Shown here one piece after another: positions 30,788 to 58,386 of a stretch of 64,000 nt of DNA. This DNA is from Ereboglobus sp. PH5-10 (GTDB taxonomy: Bacteria > Verrucomicrobiota > Verrucomicrobiia > Opitutales > Opitutaceae), in the NCBI RefSeq assembly GCF_029504735.1, contig NZ_JAQFIP010000011.1:62001-126000 (forward strand), given 5' to 3'. The notes under the pieces were generated by a model. It saw only the letters and a list, made by a program, of their open reading frames with translations, was not told the DNA's origin and ran no database searches. How positions within the stretch are numbered: the first letter of the stretch is position 1; the number at the start of each line of letters is the position of its first letter. Both the position numbers and the translations under genes were made by a program.

Positions 30788-30790
30788 GCC

Positions 30791-35105: not shown

Positions 35106-35159
35106 TAATTGTCTGCATCCGATGCCATATCGCCCCGCGGCAAGCTCTGCGGCGGACGA

Positions 35160-38094: not shown

Positions 38095-38109
38095 ATTGTG
38101 ATTATATGC

Positions 38110-39651: not shown

Positions 39652-39671
39652 TCTCGCGTCGCCACATCTGC

Positions 39672-40826: not shown

Positions 40827-40920
40827 GTGTTTAAGAAAGCCCCCCGCACGAACCCCACCGCCGCGGATTGCGGACGGTTATAAAAGAGCCATGCAAGGGG
40901 CGATCAGCCCAACACACCCG

Positions 40921-40953
40921 CGCAAACCGCAGCCCGAAGGGCTGCGGTTTGCG
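40921..40953. repeat. Perfect 15-bp hairpin with GAA loop
   Basis: Arms 40921-40935 and 40939-40953 are perfectly complementary (CGCAAACCGCAGCCC on the left) and close on a GAA triloop, followed by an A-rich run. It lies between two divergent genes, downstream of neither, so it is not an obvious terminator for a known gene. Similar C-GAA-G loops close the hairpins at 39629 and 48084. Confidence 0.65.
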
Positions 40954-41060
40954 ACAAAAAACATATAACATTTTGAATATAAATATTTTAATTAATCAAA
41001 AGAGGTTCCTCGCTATTTTGAGTGGAAAGAGGGGACAGTAGTCAAAAGCTGAGGGGAACA

Positions 41061-41885: not shown

Positions 41886-43370
41886 TCAGTCAAGAATCGC
41901 CGGCAGGCCAAATGGAGCGGCATGTTCGTCGAGCGCCTTGGTGCCGCGGAAATATTCGTGGGTTTTTTCAAACGACTCGAATGGCATGCGGCTGTTTAGC
42001 TCAATGAGCTTGTGGCCAAACGCGATGAAGGGCTCGGCGTCGCTTCGCAACGTGAGCGCCTCCAGCACCGTCAAATAATCGCTGCGGAAAGAAGTGGGGA
42101 TGATCAGGCGCATCCGGCCCGCCGCCTCCAGATCCGCATTCATGCAAAGGCGCGAGATGCGTCCGTTGCCATCGTTGAAGGGATGCACCTCCGCCATGAG
42201 AAACAGCACGTAAAGCGCCCTCGCGACCGGCGACGGCAACGCGCGTCCCAGCGTCCATCCGCGCGCGAGTGTTTCAACAACGAGCTCCGGCGCGACAAAC
42301 ACCCGCGAGCCGACCTCGTTGTTTCGCGTCTTGAGGACACCCGGCTCGACCGACGCCCTGCCGGCCATCATGCGGGCATGGCGTCGTTTTATGAGGTCGA
42401 TCAACTCGGACGGGCTTTCCGTCACCGCCGCGCTGATATTGGGATCGGCGACAAGCCGATAGGTTTCGCGCACATCGTGAGCGTCCTCGGGACGCGCGCT
42501 TTGCAGGCGCCCGGCCGCCGCGCCGGCGTAAACAATTGATTGCGCTTCCTCGACGGTGAATTTTGTGCCCTCGATGAAGTTCGAGAAATACGCTTCCCAA
42601 AAGGCTCGGTTGTCGAACTCCGGGGCCGGGGGCGCCGGCAGCTCCTTGAATGCTTCCGCCGCGAGGCGCGCGTGAAGGTTGCGGAAAAGAATGTCCCGCT
42701 CGGGGTCGTAAGGTTTTCCGTGGGCGCGCGAACGCGAAAGGTCGCTTGTGAGCCGGTAGGCGGAACGCCGCCCCAGCAATGCGTCGGCCAGATTTTGAAA
42801 TTCCCGCTGTTCATTTTGCCAGCCAAGCCGCTCCGCCACTCCGGCTGTGCGCGTCCGCATCTGTTCAAGCCAGTCCGTGCCGAAGATGCGAATTTGGCGG
42901 TCAATCCAGTGCTCAAGTTCGGATTTCGAGAGGATTTTTGGTTCATCCCCGGCGCGCGCGCGCGCAATTTGCATGTTCTCCAAAAGCGCGCGCGGCTGGC
43001 TTGCGGTGAATAGCTTTTCGCTGTCGCCAAATGTCACCGGAATGTCGTCGGGTTGCGCCGCCGGGCCTCGCCAAAGCCGGATTTCCAAACCGGGCAACTT
43101 GCGCACGGGAGCCACCGCGTCCGGCACGCTTACATGAAGTTTGCCCGCAGGTGACGGTTTGTTGTCGATTGCAGAGCGATGGCTGATCACCGCGCCCGGA
43201 TAAAAATGCGCGATAATCTCCAGGCGGTGCCGCTGCACGATAGTTTCGACAGGCGAGGTCATGTCGTCCGTGTAAATCTTCGTGGCAATTTTTCGCAGTT
43301 TTCCGGATGCGACTGCACGGGCGACTTTACTGGAGCGGATTGGATCGGATGAGCCGAAGATCAGGGACAT
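41886..43370 (-). CDS. Fic-domain protein with N-terminal winged-helix-like region
   Basis: The start at 43370 (MSLIFGSSDPIRSSKVARAV) gives 494 residues; the longer frame to 43445 adds AT-rich leader sequence. Residues 1-100 resemble the winged-helix region found in AbiEi-like and related proteins (SGKLRKIATKIYTDDMTSPV, AVISHRSAID). The Fic core has the active-site loop HPFNDGNGRISR with His at about residue 396. An (S/T)xxxE(G/N) motif lies upstream in SNFIEGTKF, the inhibitory helix of class II Fic enzymes. Fic proteins transfer AMP or other phosphate-containing groups to protein hydroxyls. The motif set is complete, so an active, self-inhibited enzyme is expected; the target is unknown. 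Confidence 0.9.
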   Translation of the reverse strand: MSLIFGSSDPIRSSKVARAVASGKLRKIATKIYTDDMTSPVETIVQRHRLEIIAHFYPGAVISHRSAIDNKPSPAGKLHVSVPDAVAPVRKLPGLEIRLWRGPAAQPDDIPVTFGDSEKLFTASQPRALLENMQIARARAGDEPKILSKSELEHWIDRQIRIFGTDWLEQMRTRTAGVAERLGWQNEQREFQNLADALLGRRSAYRLTSDLSRSRAHGKPYDPERDILFRNLHARLAAEAFKELPAPPAPEFDNRAFWEAYFSNFIEGTKFTVEEAQSIVYAGAAAGRLQSARPEDAHDVRETYRLVADPNISAAVTESPSELIDLIKRRHARMMAGRASVEPGVLKTRNNEVGSRVFVAPELVVETLARGWTLGRALPSPVARALYVLFLMAEVHPFNDGNGRISRLCMNADLEAAGRMRLIIPTSFRSDYLTVLEALTLRSDAEPFIAFGHKLIELNSRMPFESFEKTHEYFRGTKALDEHAAPFGLPAILD

Positions 43371-43932
43371 AAATTTTCTATAGTTGGAGCATTGAAACAG
43401 ACATGGTATGTTAAATTTCATATAAATAAAGGATAGATATGCCAATTTTCACAATAATAAACTGCTGATCGAGAGGACATTTGTCCTGAAGGCGGAGGCA
43501 AGAAATCTCGAAAATAGTCGTCGATATCATCGAAAAAGAAGAATTTAAGATGATTAGAAGTTAAATGTGTAAACTTTCATCGCATTTGAGCAATTATGAC
43601 GCTCAACGCCACGTCTATGCTTCGGTGCACCCAACCTCAACAGGGTGCCAAGCGGCGAACAAGCCGGGCAGCACCGCCGCCGCCACCGGACGAGCTGTTA
43701 TTGCCGCCGGTGTTGCCGCTACTTGTGGTGACGGTCAACTGTCGCCCGAATATGTATGAGTCTGGGCACAATGTGTCCGGCGTTGCGAGAATTGTTTCAG
43801 TGAAACATCATGGGACGTAAACTGCGTTGTGTTGTGCAACGACGGGCAAGGTAGAGTTTCGTTATACCCGTTTGATGCCTTCACTATTATAAATGTGATG
43901 TTTCATTGAAACACCATTACTCATCACGTGTT
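43371..43932. promoter_or_regulatory. Intergenic region with two GTTTC-N3-GAAAC palindromes
   Basis: No supported gene lies here. Two perfect 15-bp palindromes of the form TGTTTCA-N-TGAAACA are at 43793-43807 and 43899-43913. A lone half-site, TGTTTCAC, is at 43929-43936 next to the stop of the proline-rich gene. The half-site resembles chromosomal parS (TGTTTCACGTGAAACA), but the spacing is one base shorter. They lie just beyond the last gene of the operon that encodes a ParB-like protein. Confidence 0.6.
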
Positions 43933-44892
43933 TCACGGGGCGCGGGGTGGTTCTCCGACGGGGGGTGGTTTGGGTGACTGCGGAGGGGGCGGCTGTGGGG
44001 CGGGGGCGATCTTGGGCGGGATGGGGACGGGCGCGCTCGCGCAGGGTGTTGCGGTCGCCGTGGTCTTGGATGCGGGCGTTTGCGTGACGGGGTTTGATGT
44101 GACCGTGTTGTCGGCTGAGGGATATGGACGGATGCCGATGGTGGCGAAGAAATCCATGACGAGGCCGAGATAGGTGGTGCGAGTTTTCCACGCAGATTGG
44201 ATGTTCGGTTTGTTGCCGGGGTGGACGCTTTGCTTTGCCGAAATGTCACCCAGCTTTTGCAGGATGTGCTGGGCCTCTTTGAGGCTGCTGATGCTGAATT
44301 GTTTGGACGCCATGATTCCGTGCAGGATTAGTTTCCCCTTGTTCAGCGGCTTTTCCACCTCGTCGAGTATGCGTATGCACTGGTCGCGGCAGGTATTGGT
44401 AATTTCGCGCATCTTGGGCGTGTCGTCATCTTGATGCACCAGCCAATGACGGACGGCGATGGCGAGCTCGCGCGCGAATCGGTCGATGGTGCCCACAATG
44501 TCCCTCACCTCCTCGACCGAGTAGGCATGTGGCAGGTCTAAGCGCGGCTTGACGGAGGCCGCCTTGTCGATAGCAACACGGATGGCTGCGGAATTCGTAG
44601 TCACGCGACTGGTGCGCTTGATGGCGGTAAGCTTTTCAACATCGCTGCGGCTGCAACGGAGGATTATGCTAAACTCCCTTTTTTCTTTGCCGGGCGGCGG
44701 CTGTGCGGGCTCGGGTTTGGCGTCGCAGACGGCGACAATCTCTGCCTTGGTTTTCCCATCGAGAAATTTTTGAACATCCAATTCTTCGAGAAGATAGATC
44801 TCCAGTTTTGCGTGGTTGATGGCGGTATTTTTTTGACCGGTATCACGCAGACAATTCTGGATAATGCGGGCTAGTTTTTTGGTAGGTTTCAT
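43933..44892 (-). CDS. Uncharacterised protein with ribbon-helix-helix-like segment and proline-rich tail
   Basis: This is a 319-residue protein. Residues of about 72-112 (REFSIILRCSRSDVEKLTAI, then VTTNSAAIRVAIDKAAS) have the strand-helix-helix pattern of ribbon-helix-helix DNA-binding proteins. A helical domain with conserved Trp/His follows (FARELAIAVRHWLVHQDD). The last 50 residues are Pro/Ala-rich. It overlaps the upstream gene by 50 bp and is the last gene of the four-gene operon. If the upstream gene is a relaxase derivative, this could be its accessory DNA-binding protein; that is inference. Confidence 0.5.
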   Translation of the reverse strand: MKPTKKLARIIQNCLRDTGQKNTAINHAKLEIYLLEELDVQKFLDGKTKAEIVAVCDAKPEPAQPPPGKEKREFSIILRCSRSDVEKLTAIKRTSRVTTNSAAIRVAIDKAASVKPRLDLPHAYSVEEVRDIVGTIDRFARELAIAVRHWLVHQDDDTPKMREITNTCRDQCIRILDEVEKPLNKGKLILHGIMASKQFSISSLKEAQHILQKLGDISAKQSVHPGNKPNIQSAWKTRTTYLGLVMDFFATIGIRPYPSADNTVTSNPVTQTPASKTTATATPCASAPVPIPPKIAPAPQPPPPQSPKPPPVGEPPRAP

Positions 44893-45859
44893 GATGTGAA
44901 TGCTGACTCTGTATTACATGATTTTTTTGCGGTGTATCACGCCGGACGGGGTTCTTGGAAATGTATGACGCGCGCCACGTCTTGGCTCTGTTTTTGAATT
45001 TATCCTCCTGAGTCTCGGACGCGAATTGGGCGAGATAGCGTTCGACGAAACCCAGGAAATACGGGAGCGAAATTTCCAATGGAGGCTGAGCCTTGACGGG
45101 TTTATTAGCGGCTGTGCGGCGACCGGGTGGGGTCCAATAAAACTGGAAGTTGGAGTCGATTTCCCATTCGTCACGGTGGAGCCCGGCGGCGACGAAAACG
45201 CGGGGTAATTTTTCCCTTTCCATGGGCGAGTCGAGCAGCGATGGGGTGTTCCGGATGGTGTCGCCAATGAGGTTCACGAGCGGGGTAAAGGCAGGGGCGT
45301 TGTCCGCGTGCCAGGCGCGCTTTTGGCCTATCGCTGGGATGGGAAACTCGCCACAATCTTGGCGGGTTTCACTTACCTCCTGCTGCCATTCATCGGCACG
45401 GTGCCGGGCTCGGCGGATGAGGTTTACGTTGCTGGGACGCGCTAGCGCCGGACGATCCCCAAGGGTGATGTGGGGGATGATGAGGTTGAGGTCGGCAGCG
45501 CCGGAAAATTTGTGAATGTGCCAGGTTACGACGCAAAATTCAAAGCAGTCGAGGGCGCGCAAAATTACATTGAGGAATTGGGATTTTTCGAAATCGTCGA
45601 GGTAGCTGCCGGGCGCGAAGGCCGCAATCCACCATGTCGCGGCCGTGCGGATTTGATTTGAAGGGGCGCGCTCCATGTTCAAGAGGCGGAGCGCCTCATC
45701 CAACAGGGTCTCGAAATCTTGTGCATTTTCCGCGCCAAAAACCTGAGCGTGATCGATGTGGTAGAACCTGTGGTTGTGATGCTCTTGGTTTTCAAGATAC
45801 CTCAACGCCCCAGAAGTCGCGGCCACGGATTTGATGGACTGCTTATTTACAACTGGCAT
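44843..45859 (-). CDS. Uncharacterised protein, possibly a degenerate relaxase-like protein
   Basis: This 338-residue protein has no confident family. The layout recalls plasmid mobilisation relaxases: a helical region, then FLNVILRALDCFEFCVVTWH, then IHKFSGAADLNLIIPHIT. In relaxases the corresponding stretch reads roughly VxxHxDExxPHLHxxVxP. Here the catalytic HxH would be DLN, so nicking activity would be lost if the alignment is right. The frame overlaps the ParB-like gene by 17 bp and the next gene by 50 bp, so the three are tightly coupled. Confidence 0.4.
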   Translation of the reverse strand: MPVVNKQSIKSVAATSGALRYLENQEHHNHRFYHIDHAQVFGAENAQDFETLLDEALRLLNMERAPSNQIRTAATWWIAAFAPGSYLDDFEKSQFLNVILRALDCFEFCVVTWHIHKFSGAADLNLIIPHITLGDRPALARPSNVNLIRRARHRADEWQQEVSETRQDCGEFPIPAIGQKRAWHADNAPAFTPLVNLIGDTIRNTPSLLDSPMEREKLPRVFVAAGLHRDEWEIDSNFQFYWTPPGRRTAANKPVKAQPPLEISLPYFLGFVERYLAQFASETQEDKFKNRAKTWRASYISKNPVRRDTPQKNHVIQSQHSHHETYQKTSPHYPELSA

Positions 45860-46931
45860 CGGAATAGTCCTCGTTTTTGGGATCGTTGGGCGTGGTAAAA
45901 AAGTAGGCCAACTTTGTCTTTAGGTAACGTGTTATCGGATGAGCCGAGAGTTTGAGGCGCGCGCGAGTGTCTTTGGCGACGCCTGGTTCCCATTCGCTGG
46001 CAATTCTTGAGGCGACGCGCTTCACGGCATAGGTTGTCAAGTTTACTTGTTCTGCTTCCACGTCGGAGTTTTTGAGCTTTTCAATAAGAGGGATTAACGC
46101 CAGCAGGGACTCGCGAGCATCATAAGACGCGGCCCTGGAATGTCTCTCCATGTCCTCAAGCGCGCGGGTGACTGTGGATTTGGAAACATTCAGCGCTCGG
46201 GCTATATCGGCTCTGCATGTGTCACCTTTGCGCGGGGTTTCTTTGTTTATCTGGACGGTGATATCAGGGTGCGTTTGCAGGAAGTTTACAACAAAGCGTT
46301 TTTTATCGGAGCCTTTGATTCTGTTGCCTTGGCGCTGGTTGATTTCGAAGGCAATGTAGGGGGCGTATCGGAGCGGGAGTGTGACGATGAAGGCCGGAAT
46401 GGTGGTGCGCAGGCAGTCTTTGGCGGTTACCACGCGGTGTTCGCCGTCGAGCAGCAGCAGGTTTTCTTCCTCGGGAATGCGCAGGAGCAGAACACGCTTC
46501 AATGGATGGCCTCGGCGCACCTTTGAGGCAAGTGCGTCAAGTGTGGCTTGGTTAAGTTGCGCTCGTGGTTGGATAGTTTTGTCGATTCTTATGTTGGCTA
46601 GAAGGACGTCTGCTTTTTCGAGGCATTTATCTTTACCGGCAGGTTCAGCGTCGAAGAGGTATTCCAGATAATCAACAATGTTGATTATCATGGAGCGGTG
46701 ATGTCGTTCGGCAATTCGTGTGGCGGCAAGGCGGCCATCTTTGTGGGCTTGCCGCACCGCCCAATGGTTGACTCCGGTGAGTTCCTCAACGTCGTCGAGA
46801 AACATATACGTATCTTCAAAACCCAAGAGTTCGAACGGGATGTCCACCGGACCAATGAAATCTGGGCCGCCGACGGTGAAGTCTTGGGCTGTTTGTGTTG
46901 GCGTGGTCGGTGTTGAGTATGATGTGCTCAT
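45843..46931 (-). CDS. ParB/Spo0J-like DNA-binding protein
   Basis: This 362-residue protein has an N-terminal region with a helix-turn-helix-like stretch (MFLDDVEELTGVNHWAVRQA). It is followed by a ParB N-terminal-type domain: VLLANIRIDKTIQPRAQLNQ, LKRVLLLRIPEEENLLLLDG and EHRVVTAKDCLRTTIPAFIV. A second helix-turn-helix is CRADIARALNVSKSTVTRAL. ParB proteins bind palindromic parS sites and, as CTP-dependent clamps, spread along DNA. GTTTC-N3-GAAAC palindromes flank the operon on both sides. No ParA ATPase is nearby, so a regulatory rather than segregation role is possible. Confidence 0.7.
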   Translation of the reverse strand: MSTSYSTPTTPTQTAQDFTVGGPDFIGPVDIPFELLGFEDTYMFLDDVEELTGVNHWAVRQAHKDGRLAATRIAERHHRSMIINIVDYLEYLFDAEPAGKDKCLEKADVLLANIRIDKTIQPRAQLNQATLDALASKVRRGHPLKRVLLLRIPEEENLLLLDGEHRVVTAKDCLRTTIPAFIVTLPLRYAPYIAFEINQRQGNRIKGSDKKRFVVNFLQTHPDITVQINKETPRKGDTCRADIARALNVSKSTVTRALEDMERHSRAASYDARESLLALIPLIEKLKNSDVEAEQVNLTTYAVKRVASRIASEWEPGVAKDTRARLKLSAHPITRYLKTKLAYFFTTPNDPKNEDYSDASCK

Positions 46932-46968
46932 AAAATGTTAAATTGGAATAGGATATTGAGGGGCAGGG

Positions 46969-47346
46969 TTACTTGACCCACCAAGGCTTGGGTTTGGTGG
47001 TGTCTGTGCGGCGGTTGAGCCACACTTCATATTCGGCAAACGGGATCCTGTAGGGCTTGCCCCCTCGCATAGTTTGGATGACCTTGGCGCGACATCGATC
47101 CGAAACGAATTGGTGGCTTCGTCCAATGGCCGCCGCGAACTCCTTGACTAAAAAGAAACCGCGGGTTTCGCCGGTGAGGCGTGCGGCCTTGGCAGCCAGG
47201 GCATCGGCAGGGATTGCTATTCGCGGGGTGTTTTCGTTTGAGGCAAATGGGACGGCTTCCGCTGCCGAAGTATTTTTGGCCGGGTTTTGTTTAGTTTCGA
47301 AATTGGAGCCGTGGGAAGCTGACATGGTAGCGTATATATTGGACAA
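46969..47346 (-). CDS. Small helix-turn-helix DNA-binding protein (excisionase-like)
   Basis: This 125-residue protein has a low-complexity N-terminus and a C-terminal helix-turn-helix: FFLVKEFAAAIGRSHQFVSD, then GKPYRIPFAEYEVWLNRR. The layout resembles MerR/excisionase-type domains that end in an R-IP-x-x-x-Y/F-xxW element. The ATG at 47346 or one of two following Met codons could be the start. It is the first gene of the operon and ends 37 bp before the ParB-like gene. Confidence 0.6.
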   Translation of the reverse strand: MSNIYATMSASHGSNFETKQNPAKNTSAAEAVPFASNENTPRIAIPADALAAKAARLTGETRGFFLVKEFAAAIGRSHQFVSDRCRAKVIQTMRGGKPYRIPFAEYEVWLNRRTDTTKPKPWWVK

Positions 47347-48083
47347 AAAAAACGGAAACCAAAGAGGAGTTTTAGGAATCGCAAAAAATCTTCTTCAATT
47401 TTAGAAAACAGCAGTTTGTTGTTAACCATAGTGCTATTAGTCGGTTGCGCATAAATCTGGTGAAGATGGCCCAGATTATTTTCTTTTCTGTGAAGTTTTT
47501 TGAGGGAGTTTTTGTCCGGGCGCGGCGTAACGGAAACGCAAGCTGGCCGTGGAATTTTTTTCCAAAGGCGGCTCGGATGGTTGCGATCAAAAATCCGAGG
47601 ATTATAGGCCAAAAAATTGGGCAAAACTTTCTCTTTGGGAAATTGGGGACGGGCTTGCAAGAAAATGGGGAAACATTTTCAACTTTTTTTCGCCTTTAGT
47701 AGTAACTTCCTGTGACTGTGCGGGTTGCCCGATCCGAGTGTTTGTAGCATTCGGATTTGATAATCAGGCATCGGTTTTTATTTATGTTATAACCATCACG
47801 GATACAACTGGTTATAGATCAATTTAGGATTTCTGCTTATGAGGATTCCAGGGCGAATTCCGGAAGGATCGAAAACTTCAAACCTTTTGATTAATTGGCG
47901 CGATTGGCGTGATTCTCCGAGACGGAATTTTGGGCAAAATTTATTGCATTTATAGATTGGGGAAGCCCATGCAAGGTGCGGGGTGGGGTTTATTGAAAAG
48001 TTTGGGTGGGTTTATTGATTTCTGGCGGCATTTGCGAAAGCCCTCCGGGGTTGGAAAACTCAAACATTAAAGCGCAGAAAACT
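47347..48083. other. AT-rich leader of the ParB-like operon
   Basis: No supported gene. The stretch is AT-rich with short frames only. An 8-bp inverted repeat (TATAACCA 47788-47795, TGGTTATA 47809-47816) is the only clear symmetry. Together with 48084-48534 it forms a 1.2-kb non-coding block between the HTH gene and hsdR. Confidence 0.5.
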
Positions 48084-48130
48084 AACAAAACGGCTCGCGC
48101 GGCACGAAGTGTCGCGCGAGCCGTTTTGTT
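48084..48130. terminator. Long hairpin with GAA loop
   Basis: 22-bp arms (48084-48105 and 48109-48130) pair with a single non-Watson-Crick position and close on a GAA triloop. A-rich and T-rich ends flank a CGGCTCGCGC core. It could terminate transcription in either direction. Its right arm overlaps the GTTTC palindrome at 48128. Confidence 0.7.
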
Positions 48131-48282
48131 TCCATGAAACTATTTTTTTTACTCCTGAAGCGACGGAGCGGGATATTTTTGAATTTAGGAAATGAGGCGG
48201 ATTTTGAGATTCTTGTGGTAACTACTGTGTGTTGCCTGGGCAGCGCCTTGATTTTGACGGGACGGGGTGTTTCATGGAAACA
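48128..48282. promoter_or_regulatory. Two GTTTC-N3-GAAAC palindromes upstream of the ParB-like operon
   Basis: GTTTC-CAT-GAAAC lies at 48128-48140 and TGTTTCATGGAAACA at 48268-48282. Half-site and 3-base spacing are identical to the two sites at 43793 and 43899, so four copies bracket the operon. Confidence 0.6.
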
Positions 48283-48311
48283 AATTTTGCGCGCTTTTAT
48301 TTTTAGGTGTA

Positions 48312-48534: not shown

Positions 48535-51500
48535 TCAGGCGGTGAGTTCGTTGGCGATTAGTTCCGCCTGCTTGAGCACGGTCTCGGTGGCGAGGAGTTG
48601 CATGTCTGGCGGGTAGCCGAACTTTCGAAGGGTGCGTTTGATTATCACCTTCAGCTTCGCCTTCACACTTTCCTTTAGCGTCCAGTCAATGCTGGCGTTG
48701 CGACGGACTTGGTCGAATAGCTCCACGGCGAGTTCCCGCAGCTTGTCCTTTTGCATAAGCTCCCGCGCGCTTTCATTGTTCGCCACCGCTGTGTAGAAGG
48801 CATACTCTGGGTCGCTCAGGTTCATCTCCTTGGCGGCGTTGTCGGAGTGGACGATCTCCTTGCCCATCTTGATGAGCGCATCCATGAACTCCGCGGCGGT
48901 CAGGATTTTGTTCTGATATTTTTTGATCGCGTCCTCCAGCATTTCGAGGAGGCGCTTGCTTTCAACCAGGTTCTTCCGTGCCCGGATTTTGATTTCGTCG
49001 TTGAGGAGTTTTTTCAGGACTTCGAGCGCGATGTTCTTGTGCTGCTTATTCTTCAACTCGGCCAGGAACTCGTCGGAGAGGATCGAGATGTCGGGTTTCT
49101 TGATGCCGGCGGCGTCAAAGACATCGACTACTTTTTCGGAGACGAGCGCCTGGTCGATGACTTGGCGGATGGTGGTTTCGAGCGATTCGTCGTCGGTGCC
49201 TTCGCCGCGCGGCTCGAACTTGACGAGGCGCGCCTTGACCGCCTGGAAAAAGCCGACTTCGTCGCGCGCGTCCATGGCCTGGTCGTGGGGGATGGCGATG
49301 GCGAGGGCTTGCGAGAGCGCGGCGACTTGTCCGATGTAGCGTTTTTTTCCGTTGTCGAGGCCGAGGATGTGCTCCTCGGCGGCGAGGATGATCGTGAGTT
49401 TTTGCGCGGTGCCTGCGGCGAAGTAGTTTTCGTAGGGGAAGTCGGCGCCCTCGCGGAACATCGCCGATACGATTTCCAGTTTTTCGAGCATGACCTTCAC
49501 GGCCTGCTCTTGCGCGGTGGCGGGATCGCCGCGTCCGCCGGATTCGGAGTAGAAGGAGAGCGCTTCCTTCAGGTCTGCCGCGATGCCGAGGTAATCGACC
49601 ACGAGGCCGGCGGGCTTGTCCTTGTAAACGCGGTTCACGCGGGCGATGGCCTGCATGAGGTTGTGCCCCTTCATGGGCTTGTCGATGTAGAGGGTGTGCA
49701 GGCAGGGCGCGTCGAAGCCGGTCAGCCACATGTCGCGCACGATGACGAGGCGCAGCGGGTCGTCGGGGTTGCGCATGCGCTCGGCGAGTGCCTTGCGCTG
49801 CTCCTTGGTGGTGTGGTGGCGCGCGACTTCGGGGCCGTCGGTGCTCTTGGCGGTCATCACGACTTTGAGGGCGCCCTTGGCGGGGTCGTCGGAGTGCCAG
49901 TCGGGGCGAAGTTTTATGATTTCGGCGTAGAGTTCGGCGGCGATGCGGCGCGACATGCTCACGACCATGCCTTTGCCGTCGGCGGCTTTCAGGCGGGCCT
50001 CGAAATGGAAAACGATGTCGCGGGCGAGCGTGGCGATGCGTGGCCTGCTGCCGATGAGCGCCTCCATTTTTGTCCACTTGGCCTTGGCTTTTTGCGTGTC
50101 GCTCAGGTCCTCTGCGTCAAGTTCGTCGTCGAGCTCGGAGATTAGTTTTTTGCCTTCGTCGGAGAGCGCTACCTTGGCGAGGCGGCTTTCGTAAAAGATG
50201 CGCACGGTGGCGCCGTCCTCCACGGCTTGCGCGATGTCGTAGATGTCCACGTAGTTGCCGAAAACCGCGGGCGTGTTTTTGTCGGTTTTTTCGATGGGGG
50301 TGCCGGTGAAGCCGAGGTAGGTGGCGTTGGGCAGCGCGTCGCGCAGGTATTTGGCAAAGCCGTAAACAACTTTTTGCCCGACGACGGTGCCGGAGGCGTC
50401 TTTTTCGTCAACGGTCTTTGCCTTGAAGCCGTATTGGGTGCGGTGCGCCTCGTCGGCGATGACGACGATGTTTCGGCGGGGGGAGAGTTGCTCGTAAACA
50501 TTGCCGGTTTCAGGCTGGAATTTCTGGATGGTGCTGAACACCACGCCGCCGCTGGCGACTGCGAGCAATTCTTTCAGGTGCTCGCGGCTTTCGGCCTGCA
50601 CGGGGGCCTGGCGCAGGAGCTGACGCGAGGCGGCGAAGGTGTCGAAGAGCTGGTCGTCGAGGTCGTTGCGGTCGGTGAGGACAACGATGGTGGGGTTGTC
50701 CAGCGCGAGGACGATTTTGCCGGTGTAGAACACCATTGAGAGCGACTTGCCGGAGCCTTGGGTGTGCCAGACGACGCCGGCCTTGCGGTCGCCGACGGGT
50801 TGCAGGGCGGCATCGGGTAGGCCGTAGGCGCCGGGGTCTTCGGCCACCACGCGGTTCGGCGGGGCGGAGGACATGGACAGGCCGCCCGTGCCACTCAACC
50901 CAGCCGCCCGAAGCGTGGAGGCGACGGCGGCGTTGACGGCGTAGTATTGGTGGTAGGCGGCGAGTTTTTTGACAGTGGCCACCGTCTTCTGCCTGGTCCC
51001 GGCGTCCCCGCGGCTGCCTTTCTCGAAGACGATAAAATGCCGCACAAGGTCGAGCAGCGTCTCGCGGTTCAACATGCCGCAGATAAGCACCTCCAGCTCG
51101 CTTTGGAGCTTCGAGGCCTCGACTTTGCCGTCGGAGCTTTTCCACTTCATGAAGCGAGTGAATTCTGACGAGATGGTGCCGGCGCGGGCATCCAGGCCGT
51201 CGGACACAACGACGATGGCGTTGGTCGTGAAGAGGCCTGGCACGGTCTGCTTGTAGGTGGCGATCTGCTTGAACGCGGAGCGGATGGTCGCGTTTTCGTC
51301 CGCCGGGTTTTTCAGCTCGATGACGACCAGCGGCAGGCCGTTGACGAAGAGCACAAGGTCGGGGCGCTTGTTAAAATGGTTTTCGATGACCGTGAACTGG
51401 TTGACGACGAGGAAATCGTTGTTGAGCGGGTTTTCGAAATCGACCAGCCACACGCGCTCGCCGCGCTCGGCACCGTCTTTTTGCAGGCTCACGGGGACGC

Positions 51501-51774
51501 CCTCGGTGAGCAGTCGGTGGAAGGTTTCGTTGTCCGCCATCAAGTCCGGCGAATGGATGCGCCGCACGACCTTGAGCGCGTCGTCGAGCAGGGCCGGCGG
51601 CAGGGTGGGGTTGATGCGCCGCAATGCCGTCTCCAGCCGCGCCGCGAGGAGCGTTTGCGTGTAGTCGGCGCGCTCGACCTCGTCGTCGGCCGCGTGGAGG
51701 TAGGCGTAACCCTGCGCTTCAAGCAACTGGATCGCGTAGTCTTCGATGGCGGATTCGGTGAGGCGGGTCGTCAT
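48535..51774 (-). CDS. hsdR: Type I restriction endonuclease subunit R
   Basis: This 1079-residue protein is of full family length. It has an N-terminal HsdR nuclease domain ([40 protein letters not shown]; the D...ExK core ends in ELK). Superfamily 2 helicase motifs follow: Walker [35 protein letters not shown] and GFTGTPI. Motif VI is in [17 protein letters not shown], followed by a helical C-terminus. It is the last gene of the operon, 85 bp after the shortened AlbA_2 gene, on the same strand. It should form the translocating/cleaving part of an HsdR2M2S complex. Confidence 0.96.
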
Positions 51775-51859
51775 GCGGTTTTACTTGAGTGGTTCTTGGG
51801 CGCTGCTTGGTGGTTACTTGAGTGGCGGGCGGCGTTTTTTGGAGGCGGGGCACGCGATG

Positions 51860-52450
51860 TTATTCCCCTTTTAACACAGCGAGCCCCCTGGCGGTCAGGC
51901 GGTATTTTTGCGTCGGACTGCGAGGCTTATCCGGCTGCGTCCTCTCGATAAACCCGGCGGTTAAGGCGGGATTCACAAAATTTCGCCTGAAGTTGACCAC
52001 ATCCCTCATCGCCAATTCTCGCATCAAATCGTCCCTGCTTTTTGTCGAGCTATGCAATGCCAGCAACAGGCTTATTACTTGATGGGTTACTTGATGGGTC
52101 GCCCGATTTTTCGTCACCCCTGTTTTTTTATTTAATCCTTTATTTTTCAATATGTTAACTTGATGGGTGGGCTTGGGGCTTACTTGATGGGTCGCCGATG
52201 CTTGTTCAATGCGCAAAGTCACCCAAAAACCGCCTTCCGCCTCCGTCATTTCCGGCTCCGCGAGGCCGGCTTTTTGGCAAGCCTCAATGATCTTTATCGT
52301 GCCCCGCCCCCAGCCGTCGATATAGCCGCCCTTGAACTCGTCCATACCGGGAAAAAGGCTGCCGCCCCTCGCGTTGGCGAAGCCGCAAATCCATTTGAGG
52401 TAATCGTCGTGCCAAGCCTGTTTATATTCGATGTTTTGGTGCTCGGGCAT
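51860..52450 (-). CDS. Shortened AlbA_2/RecG-like regulator (internal in-frame deletion)
   Basis: This 196-residue protein begins like a schlafen AlbA_2 protein (PEHQNIEYKQAWHDDYLKWI, CGFANARGGSL). After about 33 residues it jumps to the C-terminal part of the same family (GGYIDGWGRGTIKIIEACQK, then AGLAEPEMTEAEGGFWVTL). A THQV-rich linker and a winged-helix follow (RDDLMRELAMRDVVNFRRNF, GFIERTQPDKP). Full-length relatives are usually well over 400 residues, so the AlbA core and the divergent ATPase middle are largely missing while the frame is kept. Such proteins often sit in type I restriction-modification operons. It starts 6 bp after the small RhuM fragment. Confidence 0.7.
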   Translation of the reverse strand: MPEHQNIEYKQAWHDDYLKWICGFANARGGSLFPGMDEFKGGYIDGWGRGTIKIIEACQKAGLAEPEMTEAEGGFWVTLRIEQASATHQVSPKPTHQVNILKNKGLNKKTGVTKNRATHQVTHQVISLLLALHSSTKSRDDLMRELAMRDVVNFRRNFVNPALTAGFIERTQPDKPRSPTQKYRLTARGLAVLKGE

Positions 52451-52456
52451 GGTGGG

Positions 52457-52630
52457 TTAGCGGGTTGCGCGCATGAGAACGGGAACGGGGCGGACGGGCA
52501 AGATTTGCGCGCGGCTGCCGACGGCTGTTGCGTTTAGCGTGCGCCGGATGGATTCGTCCTTGCAAAGCACGCCCGCCTTCACGGCTCCGTCGGTCGCGGA
52601 ATATGGCAGGAACTGGTTGACGTTATTCAT
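52457..52630 (-). CDS. RhuM N-terminal fragment, 57 residues
   Basis: The frame starts at 52630 with its ATG overlapping the TGA of the HAD gene (ATGA), and stops at 52457. It reads MNNVNQFLPYSATDGAVKAG, then VLCKDESI, close to the first 28 residues of RhuM-type proteins (xxFLLYxxxDGxVKVxVxxxDETxWLTQ). The rest (RRTLNATAVGSRAQILPVRP) has no counterpart. It is probably a relic, retained within a chain of overlapping start and stop codons. Confidence 0.5.
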   Translation of the reverse strand: MNNVNQFLPYSATDGAVKAGVLCKDESIRRTLNATAVGSRAQILPVRPVPVLMRATR

Positions 52631-53586
52631 GGGTTTTGCGGAGGCGCGGCGCTTTCAGGTATTGGGATAGCGGGGGCGTCCGTCGCAAGCGTTTCGGTTT
52701 TGTCGGCGCTTTTTTCTTTCGGTTGGCCAATTTTTTCCAACTGAGCCGTCGCTGTTTCCAGACGACTTGCGGCAACGATTTTATCAATGATAGCGCAAAC
52801 CAGTTTTTTCATTTGAGAGCCGCTTCCGTAGGAGGCGGGTGCCATGTAATTAATACGTTTGTTTGCCAGAAGCGCCTTTGCGCTTTCTAGTTTCCCGGCC
52901 TTTCTCTGATCATAAACGGCTATAGAATTGCCGCCTTTTTGCTTCACCAACTTCATGCAAGGCACATCAGTCGCGCCATCCCCAATATAAATCATTCTGG
53001 AAAATGGGATAGGCCTCTGGCTTTCAGGAATATACTCGTTAATCAATGTATTATCATTGTCGTCTTCTATGCCCTTGTTGATGCGGAACAGGAATTGCGT
53101 TTTTGTCGTATAATTAACGGCAACTGCAGGCCACTTGGCCGTTCCGTCCTGTTCGTCGTAAACGAATGAGCAAGCGTATATTTTTTTGAAATACTTTGCG
53201 ATGGACGTGCCCTCGATCATCTCCTTGATTCCGGATGATACGATATAGTGTTCAATTATGACGCCGTTCTTTTTTCCGTAGGCATTGATTATCTTGAACC
53301 AGTCCTCGACGCCGTTGAAAAGCTTTACGCTTTTCCCGTATCCTTGAATGGATGCCTTGGTTGTTTTATTGCTGCCGACGTGTGCTTTGGCCTTGTCGAT
53401 CATCAGCATCATGTAAGTTAGAATTTGGTCGGCATGGTTTCGCTTTCGGCATGCCTCGACTTCGCTCCAGAATGGCTGGGCTTTTGTTCCCAAGTCATTA
53501 AAGAAATCGTATTCTTGCATGTTCTTGGGCGATAATGTGCCGTCGAAATCGTAACAGATTGCTATGGTTGGTTTTATTTTACTCAT
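52627..53586 (-). CDS. HAD-superfamily phosphatase-like protein
   Basis: This 319-residue protein has HAD motif I at the N-terminus (ICYDFDGTLSPKNM), motif II-type Ser (HYIVSSGIKEMI), a conserved Lys region, and motif IV (MIYIGDGATDVPCMKLV). A large cap region sits between motifs I and II. The C-terminal 60 residues are a Lys/Glu/Ala-rich tail. It lies 9 bp after hsdS within the restriction-modification operon, an uncommon companion; phosphatase activity on an unknown substrate is expected. Lower GC than hsdM or hsdR suggests separate acquisition. Confidence 0.8.
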   Translation of the reverse strand: MSKIKPTIAICYDFDGTLSPKNMQEYDFFNDLGTKAQPFWSEVEACRKRNHADQILTYMMLMIDKAKAHVGSNKTTKASIQGYGKSVKLFNGVEDWFKIINAYGKKNGVIIEHYIVSSGIKEMIEGTSIAKYFKKIYACSFVYDEQDGTAKWPAVAVNYTTKTQFLFRINKGIEDDNDNTLINEYIPESQRPIPFSRMIYIGDGATDVPCMKLVKQKGGNSIAVYDQRKAGKLESAKALLANKRINYMAPASYGSGSQMKKLVCAIIDKIVAASRLETATAQLEKIGQPKEKSADKTETLATDAPAIPIPESAAPPQNP

Positions 53587-53595
53587 GATGTGAAA

Positions 53596-54744
53596 TTAGA
53601 TGGTGCTAATTTTGCTTTCGCCGCCCATCAGTCTTGGCAACAGCATATTACGGATGGCTTCCAGGGTTTTTATTTGCGCTATATTTTTTTGTATTTTCTC
53701 AAGCGCGGGAATCGCAAAGGCATTGAAGGCGTTGATGGCTTTAGTGTCCGGAATCACAATTTCATATTGGCTCAAGGTGTTCCAGTCAGTGCGCGGCATT
53801 CGGGTTCCACCCGATCCAAGGTTGGCATATGCGACAACATCGTCTTGAAAGAATGCAAACAGGCAAAATGCCAAGTATTCGGGACGCTTGGGGCGCAAAA
53901 CTAAAATGTCGGTCGAACAAATACCGGAGAACGGAGCGATGACGACCTTGTGAAAATACGGACGAAGTTTGCCGAACAGTATGTCGTTCTTTCCGAAGGC
54001 GGATTTATTGCTGCTGACCGCGTCCCCGTGCCCGTATTGATTTAGCGCAATGTTTCTTTTGTCGATATGCTCAAGGCCAATGTATTTTGTTTCAGCCAAT
54101 ATGTCTTCGGTCTTTATGGATTCCCGTATATTGTCCGTGACGTCTCCCAGTTTTCCCTCTTTCCAATCGGGTTGTGGCGATTCGATGAAGGTTTGGCGGA
54201 AGAGGGTTTCGGCGAGGGATTCGAGGGTTTTGTTCTGGCGATGTAGGAGGTCGATTTTGTCGTCAAGGATGCCCAGCATATCCGCTATCGCGCGTTGCTC
54301 GGGGAGCGGGGGAATTTTTACCGACGCCAGATAAATATAATTACGGTTTAACGAGGGTTGAGCACTGCCAGAATTATAACCCGAAAAATCCAATGTTTTC
54401 AGCAGGTAATAGGCGAAGCGCACATCGTTGCCCTTGAAGTCGGTGACATAGAGGGCGGTGTTGTGCGGCCAATAATCAACATCGCTGTAATGAACTTGTC
54501 CAAACGAGGCGCCGCTTCGCCCGATAACTATGCCCGGCCCTTTTGCCAGTGCGGTATCGTGGAAGCCGTTCTGCCCGGCTGAGCCCATGACGGGAATGTT
54601 GCCCGCGCGTCGCTCCGGATCGGTCAAGTCGTGTCCTCTTTGGAGTGATATAAAATCACCGAGAGTCGCATCCTTCCATTCGCTCGCGGCTGTTTGCCGG
54701 GGACGCGGGGCTTTTGCCTCGCTTGGTTGGGTGCGGGGTTTCAT
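53596..54744 (-). CDS. hsdS: Type I restriction-modification specificity subunit S
   Basis: The start at 54744 ([20 protein letters not shown]) gives 382 residues and an ATGA overlap with the mini-RhuM stop; an in-frame upstream extension is unlikely. There are two target-recognition domains. The first (WKDATLGDFISLQRGHDLTD to YIYLASVKIPPLPEQRAIAD) is followed by a conserved coiled-coil spacer (MLGILDDKIDLLHRQNKTLE). The second (WKEGKLGDVTDNIRESIKTE to LSQYEIVIPDT) ends in a second, shorter helix. It determines the asymmetric DNA target and bridges two HsdM subunits. Confidence 0.94.
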   Translation of the reverse strand: MKPRTQPSEAKAPRPRQTAASEWKDATLGDFISLQRGHDLTDPERRAGNIPVMGSAGQNGFHDTALAKGPGIVIGRSGASFGQVHYSDVDYWPHNTALYVTDFKGNDVRFAYYLLKTLDFSGYNSGSAQPSLNRNYIYLASVKIPPLPEQRAIADMLGILDDKIDLLHRQNKTLESLAETLFRQTFIESPQPDWKEGKLGDVTDNIRESIKTEDILAETKYIGLEHIDKRNIALNQYGHGDAVSSNKSAFGKNDILFGKLRPYFHKVVIAPFSGICSTDILVLRPKRPEYLAFCLFAFFQDDVVAYANLGSGGTRMPRTDWNTLSQYEIVIPDTKAINAFNAFAIPALEKIQKNIAQIKTLEAIRNMLLPRLMGGESKISTI

Positions 54745-54977
54745 GCGGCACCTCCCGCAAAGACCTGCCGATACATGACTTTCTCGCTGGCGCGGGTGTC
54801 GCGGTTGCGTTCGAGGCGCTTTTTCCAATAGAGGCCGCCGCCGACTTGTTTCAAGGGGGCGTCATTCATGGCGAAGCGCGCCGATTTCACGCGGCAGCCG
54901 ACTGCGATGATGCCGTCGATTTTCACGAGTCCGTCCGCGCTTTGGTAAATGATGAATTCTGTTTTTTCAGGGTTCAT
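54741..54977 (-). CDS. Miniaturised RhuM-like protein, 78 residues
   Basis: It starts within the hsdM stop (ATGA at 54974-54977) and ends within the hsdS start (ATGA at 54741-54744). The sequence [20 protein letters not shown] matches the RhuM N-terminus. [14 protein letters not shown] matches the middle (xILAVGYRVxSxRG). The section from [20 protein letters not shown] into [12 protein letters not shown] matches the C-terminal part (xxLLExIRDIRASExxxYxxVxxIFA). Full RhuM proteins are about 330 residues, so at least two internal segments are missing without loss of frame. RhuM genes are common guests between hsdM and hsdS. Whether this product still functions or only keeps translation coupled is unknown. 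Confidence 0.65.
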
Positions 54978-56587
54978 AGCTTCACCTTCGCGAGGTTTTG
55001 GCGGATGACTTCGTTGAGTTTTTGCTCCTCCAGCATCTGGGCGGCGAGCTCGGCCTGGAGGGCGGCGAATCTTTCGGGGAAATTAAAATCGTCCTCCTCG
55101 TCGGGGAGCCCGACGTAGCGGCCGGGCGTGAGCACGTAGTCGAGCTCGGCGACGCGGTGGAGCGGGACGGAGGCGCAATAACCGGGAATGTCTTCGTAAG
55201 GCAGGGCGTGTTCGCCGGGCGCGCCGCTTTTCCCCGCTCCCGCCAATTTCGGGGACGGCGGTTTCGGCGAAACCGCCCTACCTGTGCGCCATGCGTGGTA
55301 TGTGCCGGCGATTTGTTGTATGTCCTCGTGCGAGAGTTCGCGGGTGCGGCGGTTGATAAGGTGGCCGAGGTTGCGGGCGTCGATGAAGAGGATTTCGCCG
55401 GGACGCGGGTGGGCGGTGGTTTTGCGGGCGCGATTAAGGAACCAGAGGGCGGCGGGGATTTGCGTGTTGAGAAAGAGTTTCGCGGGGAGGTTGACGATGC
55501 AGTCGATAAGGTTGCCGTCGGCGATCATGGCCTTGCGGATGTCGCCCTCGCCGGAGGTTTTGCTGGTAAGCGCGCCCTTGGCAAGAACGACGCCGGCCTT
55601 GCCGCCGGGGGTGAGGTGGGCGACGAAGTGTTGGAGCCAGGCGAAGTTGGCGTTGCCGACGGGCGGGCGGCCGTATTGCCAGCGTCCGTCGGTCTGGAGG
55701 AGGTCGCCGCTCCAGTCGCTAACGTTGAAGGGCGGGTTGGCGATGATGAAGTCGGCGCGGAGATCCTTGTGGGCGTCGTTGAGGAAGGAACCCTCGTTGT
55801 TCCACTTCACCTGCGTGGCGTCGATGCCGCGGATGGCGAGGTTCATCTTGGCGAGGCGCCAGGTGGTTTGGTTGCTTTCCTGGCCGTAGATGGAGATGTC
55901 GTTGACGCGGCCCTGGTGCTCTTTGACGAACTTCTCGGACTGCACGAACATGCCGCCGGAGCCGCAGCAGGGATCGAAGACGCGACCTTTGTAGGGTTCG
56001 AGCATGGCGACGAGGAGCTCGACGATGGAGCGCGGTGTGTAGAACTGGCCGCCCTGCTTGCCCTCGGCGAGGGCGAACTCGCCGAGAAAATACTCGAAGA
56101 CGTGGCCGAGGACGTCGGCGCTGCGGGCCTTGGCGTCGCCGAGGGCGATGTTTCCGACGAGGTCGATGAGGCCGCCGAGGCTGGAGGGGTCGAGGTTTTG
56201 GCGGGCGAAGACTTTTGGGAGGACACTCTTGAGCTGGGCGTTGTCGCGCTCGATGGCGTCCATGGCGTCGTCAACGATTTTGCCGATGGCCGGAAGCTTG
56301 GCGCTGTTTTGAAGATAACGCCAGCGCGCGGCGGGCGGGACGAAGAAGACGCGCTCGGCCTTGTATTCGTCGGGGTCCTCGGGGTCGCCGCCGGAGGCTT
56401 TTTCGGCGGCGAGGCGGGCGTGGAGTTCCTCGAAGGAGTCGGAGATGTATTTGAGGAAGATGAGGCCGAGGACGACGTGCTTGTATTCGGCGGCGTCGAT
56501 GTTTTTGCGGAGTTTGTCGGCGGCGCGCCAGAGTTGCTTTTCGAGCGGTTCGGCGGCGGGTTGCTTGGGTTTGGCGGTGCGAGCCAT
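54974..56587 (-). CDS. hsdM: Type I restriction-modification DNA methyltransferase subunit M
   Basis: This 537-residue protein has an N-terminal HsdM helical domain ([20 protein letters not shown]). The N6-adenine methyltransferase core has SAM motif I ([18 protein letters not shown]) and catalytic motif IV NPPF ([13 protein letters not shown]). The C-terminal helices pack against HsdS. The [16 protein letters not shown] segment is characteristic. It is the first gene of the operon, with mini-RhuM and hsdS following by four-base overlaps. Confidence 0.97.
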
Positions 56588-56770: not shown

Positions 56771-58231
56771 TCAGGATGATTTTTTCGCGGCACGCGCGGG
56801 CTTCGAAGCTGCGGTGGTTTTCGCAGCGGGCGTTTTTCCGGCGGCGGAGGAGGGGGATGTGGTGGCGGTATCGGGTGCGGTTTGAACCGCGGCAGTTTGC
56901 GCGGCGACGGCTTTCTTGAATGCGTCCCAGTCCTTGGCGGCGGCGACGGCTTGCGGCGTCATGGCGAGGTAGAGCTTTGCGTTCGCCTCGGTAGCCACGC
57001 CTTCATAAACTTCGGTGGTTTTTGTGCTGGTGTGCTGCATGAGGTAGCCGACGGAGGGCATGTTTTTCGTGTGAGCGAGCATATAGCTGGCGAAGGAGTG
57101 ACGCCAGACGTTGCGCAGGCCGCGCAGGGTTTCCTTGTCGTCGTCGGTGGCGGCTGCCAGCGGGCGCAATCCGGCGCGAATCAGCGCGGCGCGTTTCCAT
57201 TCGCGGTAATTGAGGAATGTCATCGACCAGCACGCCTCCGGCGCGTGCGCCAACCATGCCCAGAGGACGTCGGGGTGCCCCTGCCGCCATTTGCGTTTTC
57301 CGCTTTTGTGAAGGGAGCCCGGCATCTCGATGCCTTTTTCCTCGAAGCTCAGGTGTGCCTTTTGGATGCGTCCCGCCGAGGAGTAGCGCAGGCCGCCGAA
57401 TGCCTCCAGCGCGATGCGTCCGGCAACGGGCTCGTGCAGGTTGGCCTTGAAAAATTTGAAAGCGTCCTCGGGCGAAATGACAACTACGTCGCCGTCATCA
57501 ACCTCGGGCACGGCGACGATTTCGCAGGGGTTGCGGAGTATCCAGCCTTCCTTGCGGGTGCGGTCGAGGAAGGTGTTCACGTCCTTGCGGTGGTGTTTTT
57601 TCGTTTGAGCCTCCATAGGCTCGCCGGTCTTCGGGTTGGTGAGCTTTGCCAGCCACCGGCGGATGTCGTCGGCCTCAAGCTCGTTGAGTTTTTTGTCACC
57701 GTAGTCGTTGCAGAAGCGGATGCCGACGTGTTTGTCGATATGCCGCCAGGTGTCGGCGGAGAGTTTTTCCTCGGTCTCGCGGATCGCGCGGTATTTCACG
57801 TAGGCCTCGCGCACGGTGAGACTTTGCGCGCCGCCTTTTCCGATGCCCTGACGGTAGGCGAGCCATTCGTGGGCGACGATGATGGGATCGGTTTCATCGC
57901 CGACGAGTTTTTGAAAATCGAGGTAACGCGCCCAGCGTTTCGGATCGAAGGCGAGCACGTCCGTGCCGTGTTTCTCGCGTTTCTCGGCAAGATCCCTTGC
58001 GGCGACCTCGCGGGCGGCGGCGTCCTTGAAGCCGGTGGCTTCGCGGCGACCGGATTCGCGGTCGGTCCAGTGCAAATAAAAAGGGGCGTTTGGCCTGTCT
58101 TTTCGGTAGGAATACCGAATTCCCCGAGGTGGCGACCACTTGCCTCGTTTTTTCGCCAAACTGCGTCCGACTGTTGGTTGCTGTTCTGGTTGCTGTTTCG
58201 GTTGCTGTTTCGGTTGCTGTTTGGTTGTCAT
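56771..58231 (-). CDS. Tyrosine recombinase / integrase
   Basis: This 486-residue protein begins with a QQP repeat N-terminus (TTKQQPKQQPKQQPEQQP, encoded by short tandem repeats). It has a SAM-like core-binding domain (LTVREAYVKYRAIRETEEKL) and a catalytic domain. Catalytic residues are read as Arg in GGLRYSSAGRI, Lys in LHKSGKRKW, Arg-His in LRNVWRHSFASYML, His in YLMQHTSTKTTEVYEGVA, and the Tyr in TTEVYEG. The usual HxxR first His is Asn here (NVWRHSF). The Ala/Lys/Thr-rich tail is atypical. The gene starts 79 bp from the 3' end of tRNA-Pro, the classical position for an integrase that uses the tRNA as attachment site. Confidence 0.88.
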   Translation of the reverse strand: MTTKQQPKQQPKQQPEQQPTVGRSLAKKRGKWSPPRGIRYSYRKDRPNAPFYLHWTDRESGRREATGFKDAAAREVAARDLAEKREKHGTDVLAFDPKRWARYLDFQKLVGDETDPIIVAHEWLAYRQGIGKGGAQSLTVREAYVKYRAIRETEEKLSADTWRHIDKHVGIRFCNDYGDKKLNELEADDIRRWLAKLTNPKTGEPMEAQTKKHHRKDVNTFLDRTRKEGWILRNPCEIVAVPEVDDGDVVVISPEDAFKFFKANLHEPVAGRIALEAFGGLRYSSAGRIQKAHLSFEEKGIEMPGSLHKSGKRKWRQGHPDVLWAWLAHAPEACWSMTFLNYREWKRAALIRAGLRPLAAATDDDKETLRGLRNVWRHSFASYMLAHTKNMPSVGYLMQHTSTKTTEVYEGVATEANAKLYLAMTPQAVAAAKDWDAFKKAVAAQTAAVQTAPDTATTSPSSAAGKTPAAKTTAASKPARAAKKSS

Positions 58232-58302: not shown

Positions 58303-58309
58303 GGTAAAA

Positions 58310-58386
58310 TGGTCGGGCCGGAGAGATTCGAACTCTCGACCTCTTGCACCCCATGCAAGCGCGCTACCAGGCTACGCTACGGCCCG
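58310..58386 (-). tRNA. tRNA-Pro (anticodon GGG)
   Basis: Read on the minus strand from 58386, the acceptor arms are CGGGCCG and CGGCCCG, with discriminator A and an encoded CCA (58310-58313). The D-loop contains AGCCTGGTAGCGC. The anticodon stem CTTGC/GCAAG encloses loop ATGGGGT (anticodon GGG, reading CCC/CCU). The T-arm is GAGAGTTCGAATCTCTC. This is a complete cloverleaf. The 242 bp between it and nusA contain no gene. Confidence 0.95.

Follow-up and report, generated by a model that had tools for sequence, protein, structure and literature searches.

A set of four same-strand genes was identified on a contig (NZ_JAQFIP010000011.1, hereafter C11) of Ereboglobus sp. PH5-10, a member of the Opitutaceae (Verrucomicrobiota) whose 3.58 Mb genome is assembled in 45 contigs (GCF_029504735.1). 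The stretch of DNA that was analyzed, hereafter the window, comprises 64,000 nucleotides (C11:62001-126000), and the four genes run from position 47346 down to position 43933 on its minus strand. They probably constitute the mobilisation (DNA-processing) module of an element integrated at a tRNA-Pro gene, most likely an integrative mobilisable element. One of the encoded proteins shows profile-profile homology to HEN-type relaxases, another is a ParB-like protein with relatives encoded near relaxase genes in other genomes (denoted here by handles such as G271), a tyrosine integrase gene lies next to the tRNA-Pro gene, part of which is repeated at the other end of the island, and palindromes with parS-like half-sites bracket the operon.

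Organization of the Four-Gene Operon

The four genes, in the order of the operon, are as follows.

46969..47346, minus strand: first operon gene, small DNA-binding protein of 125 amino acids (aa) resembling HTH_17/excisionase proteins (Pfam HTH_17, E = 0.025; PHROG 66 excisionase/regulator, E = 0.019)
45843..46931, minus strand: ParB-like protein, 362 aa (PHROG 1033, 5.9e-6; homologues in G271, G257 and G529, a distant one in G388)
44843..45859, minus strand: predicted strongly diverged HEN-type (MbeA-like) relaxase, 338 aa (relatives in G384 and G889; hhalign)
43933..44892, minus strand: putative accessory protein, 319 aa, with a weak ribbon-helix-helix (RHH)-like stretch (RHH_1, E = 0.06, residues 78-110) and a Pro-rich tail

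A previous sequence-only reading had described this locus as four tightly spaced or overlapping genes for helix-turn-helix (HTH), ParB-like, relaxase-like and RHH proteins. The arrangement was confirmed, with a gap of 37 bp followed by overlaps of 17 and 50 bp; the first gene starts with a TTG codon and has an in-frame ATG seven codons downstream. The domain labels fared unevenly: the ParB-like assignment is clear, the HTH and RHH assignments are weak, and the relaxase assignment finds its support in profile-profile comparison, with no library match. The ParB-like and relaxase-like genes are real coding sequences, because homologues exist in other genomes, and homology of the 319-aa protein amounts to weak similarity backed by gene position, that of the 125-aa protein to weak HTH similarity. 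Small HTH_17-like genes also occur near relaxase genes elsewhere, two genes upstream in G384 (0.03) and as the next gene downstream in G388 (1.2e-4), and the G384 relaxase gene is overlapped over 95 bp by a downstream 203-aa gene, the product of which shows weak sequence similarity to the 319-aa protein.

The 338-aa Protein as a Predicted Diverged HEN-Type Relaxase

The 338-aa protein is, as judged by profile-profile homology, a predicted and strongly diverged HEN-type (ColE1 MbeA-like) relaxase, with Y21 as the candidate catalytic residue and H114, D123 and N125 as candidate metal ligands. When an alignment of the window protein and its G384 relative was compared by hhalign with 17 MbeA-like relaxases, from which both were excluded, a score of 37.05 (P = 1.9e-4) was obtained over a stretch spanning the motif I Tyr-Leu through motif III. 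Column-permuted controls for this pair reached a maximum of 21.9 (0 of 400 attained 37.05), and the reversed alignment, a ParB alignment and an RHH-pair alignment scored 12.8, 14.8 and 16.7, respectively. The window protein alone scored 31.3 (P = 0.0011) against the same profile. Addition of a third member, from G889, gave a score of 41.1 (P = 5.9e-5) over residues 70-272, so that motif I lies outside the aligned stretch in this comparison; the 400 permuted controls for the three-member set peaked at 21.6, and none was as high as 41.1. The profile alignments are collinear over 168 and 177 columns. An earlier hhalign comparison with a five-sequence set had been weaker (E = 8.9e-4, probability 23%; ParB control, E = 0.22). 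Part of the 17-sequence set came from a search that started with the window protein and matched 13 of 372 genomes; each of the 12 members added to the set matches the five-sequence hidden Markov model (HMM), built without the window protein, at 5e-16 or less.

The candidate Tyr, His and Asn are common to all three family members, and Y21 occupies one of three invariant columns among seven aligned proteins. Within motif III, H114 and N125 align with plasmid relaxases having Asn at that position, the acidic residue is Asp in the window protein and G889 and Glu in G384, and the His-to-acid spacing is longer than in a Cobetia plasmid relaxase. A pattern picked after the sequences had been seen, Tyr-Leu plus H-x(5-7)-[DE]-x-N, occurs in four of 294 proteins of at least 200 aa, namely those of the window and G384 and two MbeA-like relaxases.

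The G384 relative, from the same order and another family, is 28% identical over residues 2-130, and the G889 member, from another order, was obtained in a profile search that matched two of the 266 genomes of the class, one of them the present genome. The G889 relaxase gene has a same-strand 187-aa gene without a library match just upstream and an integrase gene approximately 2.2 kb away. A tblastn search of 72,556 plasmid records with the relaxase-like, ParB-like and G384 relaxase proteins gave no match, nor did a search of the genome-contig and viral-contig collections with the relaxase-like protein, and sequence searches of the PDB returned nothing judged informative.

The ParB-like Protein and Its Neighbourhoods

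The ParB-like protein consists of an N-terminal HTH-like region, a ParB_N-like domain with a DGEHR motif, and a central HTH. It matches HTH_24 (1.2e-4) and ParB_N (0.0063) weakly in Pfam, and PHROG 1033, "ParB-like partition protein" (5.9e-6); its PF02195 score is 17.0 bits, against a model cut-off of 26.3 bits. Relatives were found in G271, G257 and G529, such that four of the 200 genomes of the family match, the present genome included, and a more distant relative occurs in G388, a genome of the same genus. In three of these five loci (window, G271 and G388), a relaxase gene lies beside the ParB-like gene or one small gene away, and the relaxase is a different one each time. The G271 locus contains the ParB-like gene, a 151-aa gene and then a gene for an MbeA-type relaxase (NF047848, 3.2e-8; no Pfam match). 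This relaxase has matches in 2709 plasmid records, all at less than 60% identity, and 2630 of these records are typed as mobilizable. In G388, the ParB-like gene and a MobA/MobL relaxase gene (PF03389, 7e-38) lie on either side of one small gene, and an integrase gene is nearby. No relaxase was found on the 7.7 kb contig of G529. A metallophosphoesterase and a HipA-like gene are carried by both the G271 locus and the window island.

The exact order of all four genes was absent from the other loci read. The sequence-only reading had treated homologues scattered without co-occurrence as the outcome that would count against a linked set; this outcome is only partly escaped, because the ParB-like and relaxase genes occur together in three of the five loci and do not form part of a fixed quartet.

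A scan of genome contigs with the ParB pair detected two Megasphaera loci (33-35% over 75 residues), in which neither the MbeA-like HMM nor the G388 MobA/MobL protein revealed a relaxase, and viral contigs gave no match to the pair. The ParB profile matches 55 genomes; most of the matches listed leave out the start of the profile and begin only at its ParB_N part; their positions and lengths suggest ordinary ParB. The new neighbourhoods read among these genomes were those of G388 and G485, the latter being left out of the counts as no listed open reading frame (ORF) covered the match. No ParA ATPase was found among the other three operon genes or among the neighbouring and island ORFs scanned with Pfam, and a canonical ParABS system was rejected on this ground.

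Probable Integration at the tRNA-Pro Gene

The features that define the right end of the island are as follows.

56771..58231, minus strand: tyrosine integrase, 486 aa (TIGR02224, XerC-type, 3.4e-13, below the curated cut-off; Pfam Phage_integrase, 0.0053)
58310..58386, minus strand: tRNA-Pro (GGG), the predicted integration target
58303..58325, plus strand: att-like core of 23 bp overlapping the 3' end of tRNA-Pro, with an identical copy at C11:45427-45449

The end of the tRNA gene and its flanking terminator recur at C11:45365-45449 with 84% identity, including the 23 bp identical core, and the two att-like repeats bound approximately 75 kb, of which 16.6 kb lies to the left of the window; elsewhere inside the window, the tRNA end is not directly repeated over 13 bp or more. 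In comparison with G388, the tRNA-side copy shows 100% identity across the compared stretch that starts at the core and extends to the right, and divergence to the left of it. For the left copy, a match of 97% (2 mismatches in 77) reaches as far as the end of the core and no further. This switch of sequence at both copies is the pattern expected of insertion at the 3' end of tRNA-Pro. The G388 region between the flanks gave no alignment with the island over 150 bp at E = 1e-10. The integrase is similar (E = 4e-29) to a protein encoded in a G160 relaxase locus.

The VirD4-like coupling protein (PF02534) has no match on C11 and none among the Pfam-scanned ORFs, which make up part of the island ORFs; type IV secretion genes were likewise not found among the scanned ORFs. 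A conjugative element was rejected on the basis of the coupling-protein result for this contig, and a prophage was rejected as the Pfam results of the scanned ORFs contain no phage structural family.

Palindromes Bracketing the Operon and a Candidate Origin of Transfer

The flanks of the operon contain the following sites.

43794..43806, plus strand: GTTTCNNNGAAAC palindrome, downstream pair, copy 1
43900..43912, plus strand: GTTTCNNNGAAAC palindrome, downstream pair, copy 2
48128..48140, plus strand: GTTTCNNNGAAAC palindrome, upstream pair, copy 1
48269..48281, plus strand: GTTTCNNNGAAAC palindrome, upstream pair, copy 2
48084..48130, no strand assigned: 22-nt inverted repeat, 95% complementary, with a 3-nt loop, next to a palindrome; candidate origin of transfer (oriT) or terminator

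The window contains five copies of GTTTCNNNGAAAC, against 0.08 expected, and the genome 19, four of which flank the operon, two per side, with none inside it. Four copies thus fall in approximately 1.7 kb of flanks, compared with one in 112 kb of other island and flanking DNA. In a scan of the flanks for all 5-mer and 6-mer palindromes with gaps of 0-6 bp, GTTTCNNNGAAAC ranked first. The canonical parS consensus is TGTTTCACGTGAAACA; the half-sites of the palindrome, GTTTC and GAAAC, are those of canonical parS, with a spacer of 3 bp instead of 4. The canonical 16-mer itself does not occur in the window within two mismatches, nor the exact 14-mer in the genome.

Folded as single-stranded DNA, the region 48060-48300 reaches -46.7 kcal/mol (z = -4.84; none of 200 shuffles was as good), and the two upstream palindromes pair with each other in this fold. 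The hairpin-rich intergenic region at approximately 48.06-48.40 kb is the best candidate for oriT, a terminator being possible as well. Rfam gave no match in 43-49 kb.

Proposed Function and Alternative Explanations

A working model for the module can be formulated from these sequence features. The integrase would excise the element, and the 338-aa HEN-type relaxase would nick a cognate oriT and stay attached to the strand via Y21, with the 319-aa RHH-like protein as a putative relaxosome accessory. The ParB-like protein is the presumptive ligand of the paired GTTTCNNNGAAAC sites, through which it might regulate the operon and/or assist assembly of the relaxosome or hold the excised circle, and the HTH_17-like protein may be a regulator or an excision factor. 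Transfer would proceed through a conjugation channel supplied by a helper. A more specific idea can be advanced only tentatively: a ParA-less, element-borne ParB-like protein may form a nucleoprotein complex on the palindromic parS-like sites to either side of the relaxase operon and oriT, thereby organizing or regulating the relaxosome, and may have been repeatedly paired with unrelated relaxases (the diverged HEN clade, MbeA-like and MobA/MobL) in integrative elements carried by members of this bacterial family.

The sequence-only reading had considered a mobilisation/partition module of an integrated plasmid. In favour of its mobilisation part are the integrase, the att-like repeat, the homology of the 338-aa protein to relaxases at the profile level, and the occurrence of relaxase genes next to relatives of the ParB-like gene; the partition part was not borne out, no ParA having been found, and an integrative mobilisable element is likelier than an integrated plasmid, no replication gene having been recognised among the scanned ORFs.

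A number of results weigh against assignment of the four genes to a mobilisation module. Pfam and NCBIfam, including NF047848 and PF03432, contain no relaxase model that matches the 338-aa protein, and MbeA-like HMMs built without this family place it at noise level, among shuffles, in a 774-sequence set (E = 0.18 with five sequences and 5.1 with 17). The G384 relaxase alone scores 19.5 in hhalign (P = 0.063, not significant), hhalign assigns modest probabilities of 47% and 65%, and a single-sequence AlphaFold model of the 338-aa protein has a mean pLDDT (predicted local distance difference test) of 38. The ParB-like gene of G257 has no recognised relaxase within 18.6 kb. G388 does not provide a clean empty site: the left flank is recognisable there at 94% identity, with 86 kb of other sequence lying between it and tRNA-Pro. 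The GTTTCNNNGAAAC palindrome was first noticed in these operon flanks and its enrichment computed afterwards; the motif is missing from the loci of other genomes that were compared, and the G271, G388, G257 and G384 loci showed no paired palindromes in their flanks. Finally, the ColE1-type nic sequence is absent from the window, and a broader nic consensus occurs no more often than by chance.

The noise-level HMM scores, together with an altered HEN motif in which D123 replaces Glu at a longer spacing, would also fit a decayed or domesticated relaxase operon that has lost catalysis and serves the regulation or stability of a resident island, as would the lack of coupling-protein and type IV secretion matches described above. 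Such decay seems unlikely, however, given that all four ORFs are intact and three of them overlap, that the candidate Tyr, His and Asn are common to proteins from another family (G384) and another order (G889), and that secretion genes are normally missing from mobilisable elements (PMC5704250, in the part available). The ParB-like protein and the parS-like half-sites around the operon would also be accounted for by a partition or maintenance system that lacks ParA and belongs to a plasmid-like element, integrated or excised, with another role for the relaxase-like protein. This explanation is rather improbable: the scanned ORFs include no ParA, the genome lacks the exact canonical parS 14-mer, relaxases adjoin three of the five ParB-like genes, and four of the five ParB-like proteins carry DGxHR, and the fifth DGHTR, in contrast to the GERR box of canonical ParB. 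The neighbouring type I restriction-modification genes and Fic protein might instead point to a four-gene chromosomal complex for defence or regulation, with no part in DNA transfer. We regard this as very improbable, as PADLOC is empty for three of the four proteins and gives the ParB-like one a short match (E = 0.0098) in its HTH, whereas the relaxase profile similarity, the integrase and att context and the relaxase neighbours of ParB-like relatives all point to DNA transfer. A mobilisation module remains the preferred interpretation.

Comparison with Known Mobilisable Elements

MOBP5/HEN relaxases have been described for ColE1-like plasmids (PMC8683028, and mentioned in PMC11389934; both sources in part). 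The predicted window relaxase shares with them an N-terminal Tyr-Leu, a candidate motif III composed of His, an acidic residue, x and Asn, and a hydrophobic strand. It differs in its length (338 aa, compared with 475-609 aa for four plasmid relaxases), in having Asp for Glu and a longer His-to-acid spacing, in showing no HMM-level similarity, and in its integrated setting; moreover, a ParB-like gene, rather than an annotated MobC, lies just upstream.

Integrative mobilisable elements with canonical relaxases, as far as the available part of PMC5704250 describes them, resemble the window element in having a tyrosine integrase, an att-like repeat at a gene end and their own relaxase, with no secretion genes found. 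The present island differs from them in its extent of approximately 75 kb between att-like repeats, its large glycan-degradation content, a relaxase outside the library models and a ParB-like gene inside the relaxase operon; the same partial source states that some streptococcal mobilisable elements carry ParB-related proteins. In the genomic island SGI1, two parS-like sites are bound by the ParB of the helper plasmid (PMC10954446, in part). Like the predicted element described here, SGI1 is a mobilisable island with palindromic parS-like sites; in the window, however, the ParB-like protein is encoded by the element itself, within the relaxase operon, and the predicted sites bracket this operon. 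The partition proteins of NAH7 enhance conjugation via parS and oriT binding (PMC12421886, in part), and in both cases a ParB-type protein is tied to conjugation genes via inverted-repeat sites, a connection shown for NAH7 and proposed here. NAH7 is, however, a conjugative plasmid with ParA, ParB, ParR and ParC, whereas no ParA was found in the window element.

Among the matches listed in searches of the open-licence literature, titles and abstracts contained no description of this relaxase clade or of a relaxase operon that is bracketed by such sites and includes a ParB-like gene of the element. The arrangement of four GTTTCNNNGAAAC sites with parS-like half-sites, two on each side of the operon, is new here. 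Library-based surveys of mobilisable elements rely on recognisable relaxases. As the Pfam and NCBIfam models tried do not detect this family, such surveys may count too few mobilisable elements in the lineage. Through the bracketing sites and the recurrent ParB-like partner, partition-type proteins can be linked to mobilisation in a directly testable way, in an element in which no ParA was found.

Other Contents of the Island and Mobile DNA in the Host

Between the module and the integrase lies one further stretch of genes.

48535..56587, minus strand: type I restriction-modification genes (hsdR, hsdS and hsdM), with a Fic-like_C/AlbA gene and a HAD hydrolase gene between them

This stretch is probable cargo. 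The left part of the island carries rhamnogalacturonan lyases, GH2 and GH88 enzymes, a TonB-receptor plug protein and a two-component system, and the right part carries HipA, SocA-like, Fic and type I restriction-modification genes as well as the four genes; the island may be a composite rather than one element. The large glycan-degradation set between the att-like repeats, which includes an autotransporter, occupies window positions 1-28000 and C11:46-62 kb and could be either cargo of the island or DNA of older, chromosomal origin. At 28050-38721, HipA, SocA-like, PLD-like and other small genes, assigned partly by eye, suggest toxin-antitoxin-type modules on the island. Downstream of the module, at 41886-43445, a 519-aa Fic-domain protein is encoded, for which PADLOC reports SoFic (2.1e-14, residues 284-502) and a weak AbiEi match (0.0013, residues 36-93).

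The relaxase-bearing element of G388 shares 1352 bp with window positions 39605-40956 at 97% identity; because the chromosomal flanks are also 94-96% identical, this stretch represents shared cargo at a different location and is not proof of recent exchange. It encodes a 384-aa protein without a Pfam, NCBIfam or PADLOC match (L086:13572-14922 in G388). The same G388 element encodes, at L086:15670-16599, a protein whose degenerate Walker motif (KGALGKT), recognised by eye, is ParA-like, and a 103-aa ORF of the window (38761-39072) resembles a short protein encoded next to it.

Elsewhere in the host genome, the VirD4-like coupling protein occurs at three places, on contigs C5, C13 and C25. At the C5 and C25 loci, a MobF (TrwC-type) relaxase of approximately 1000 aa, the coupling protein and a Clp-like ATPase (by eye) are encoded together; since these two coupling-protein loci carry MobF relaxases, other mobile elements are resident in the host.

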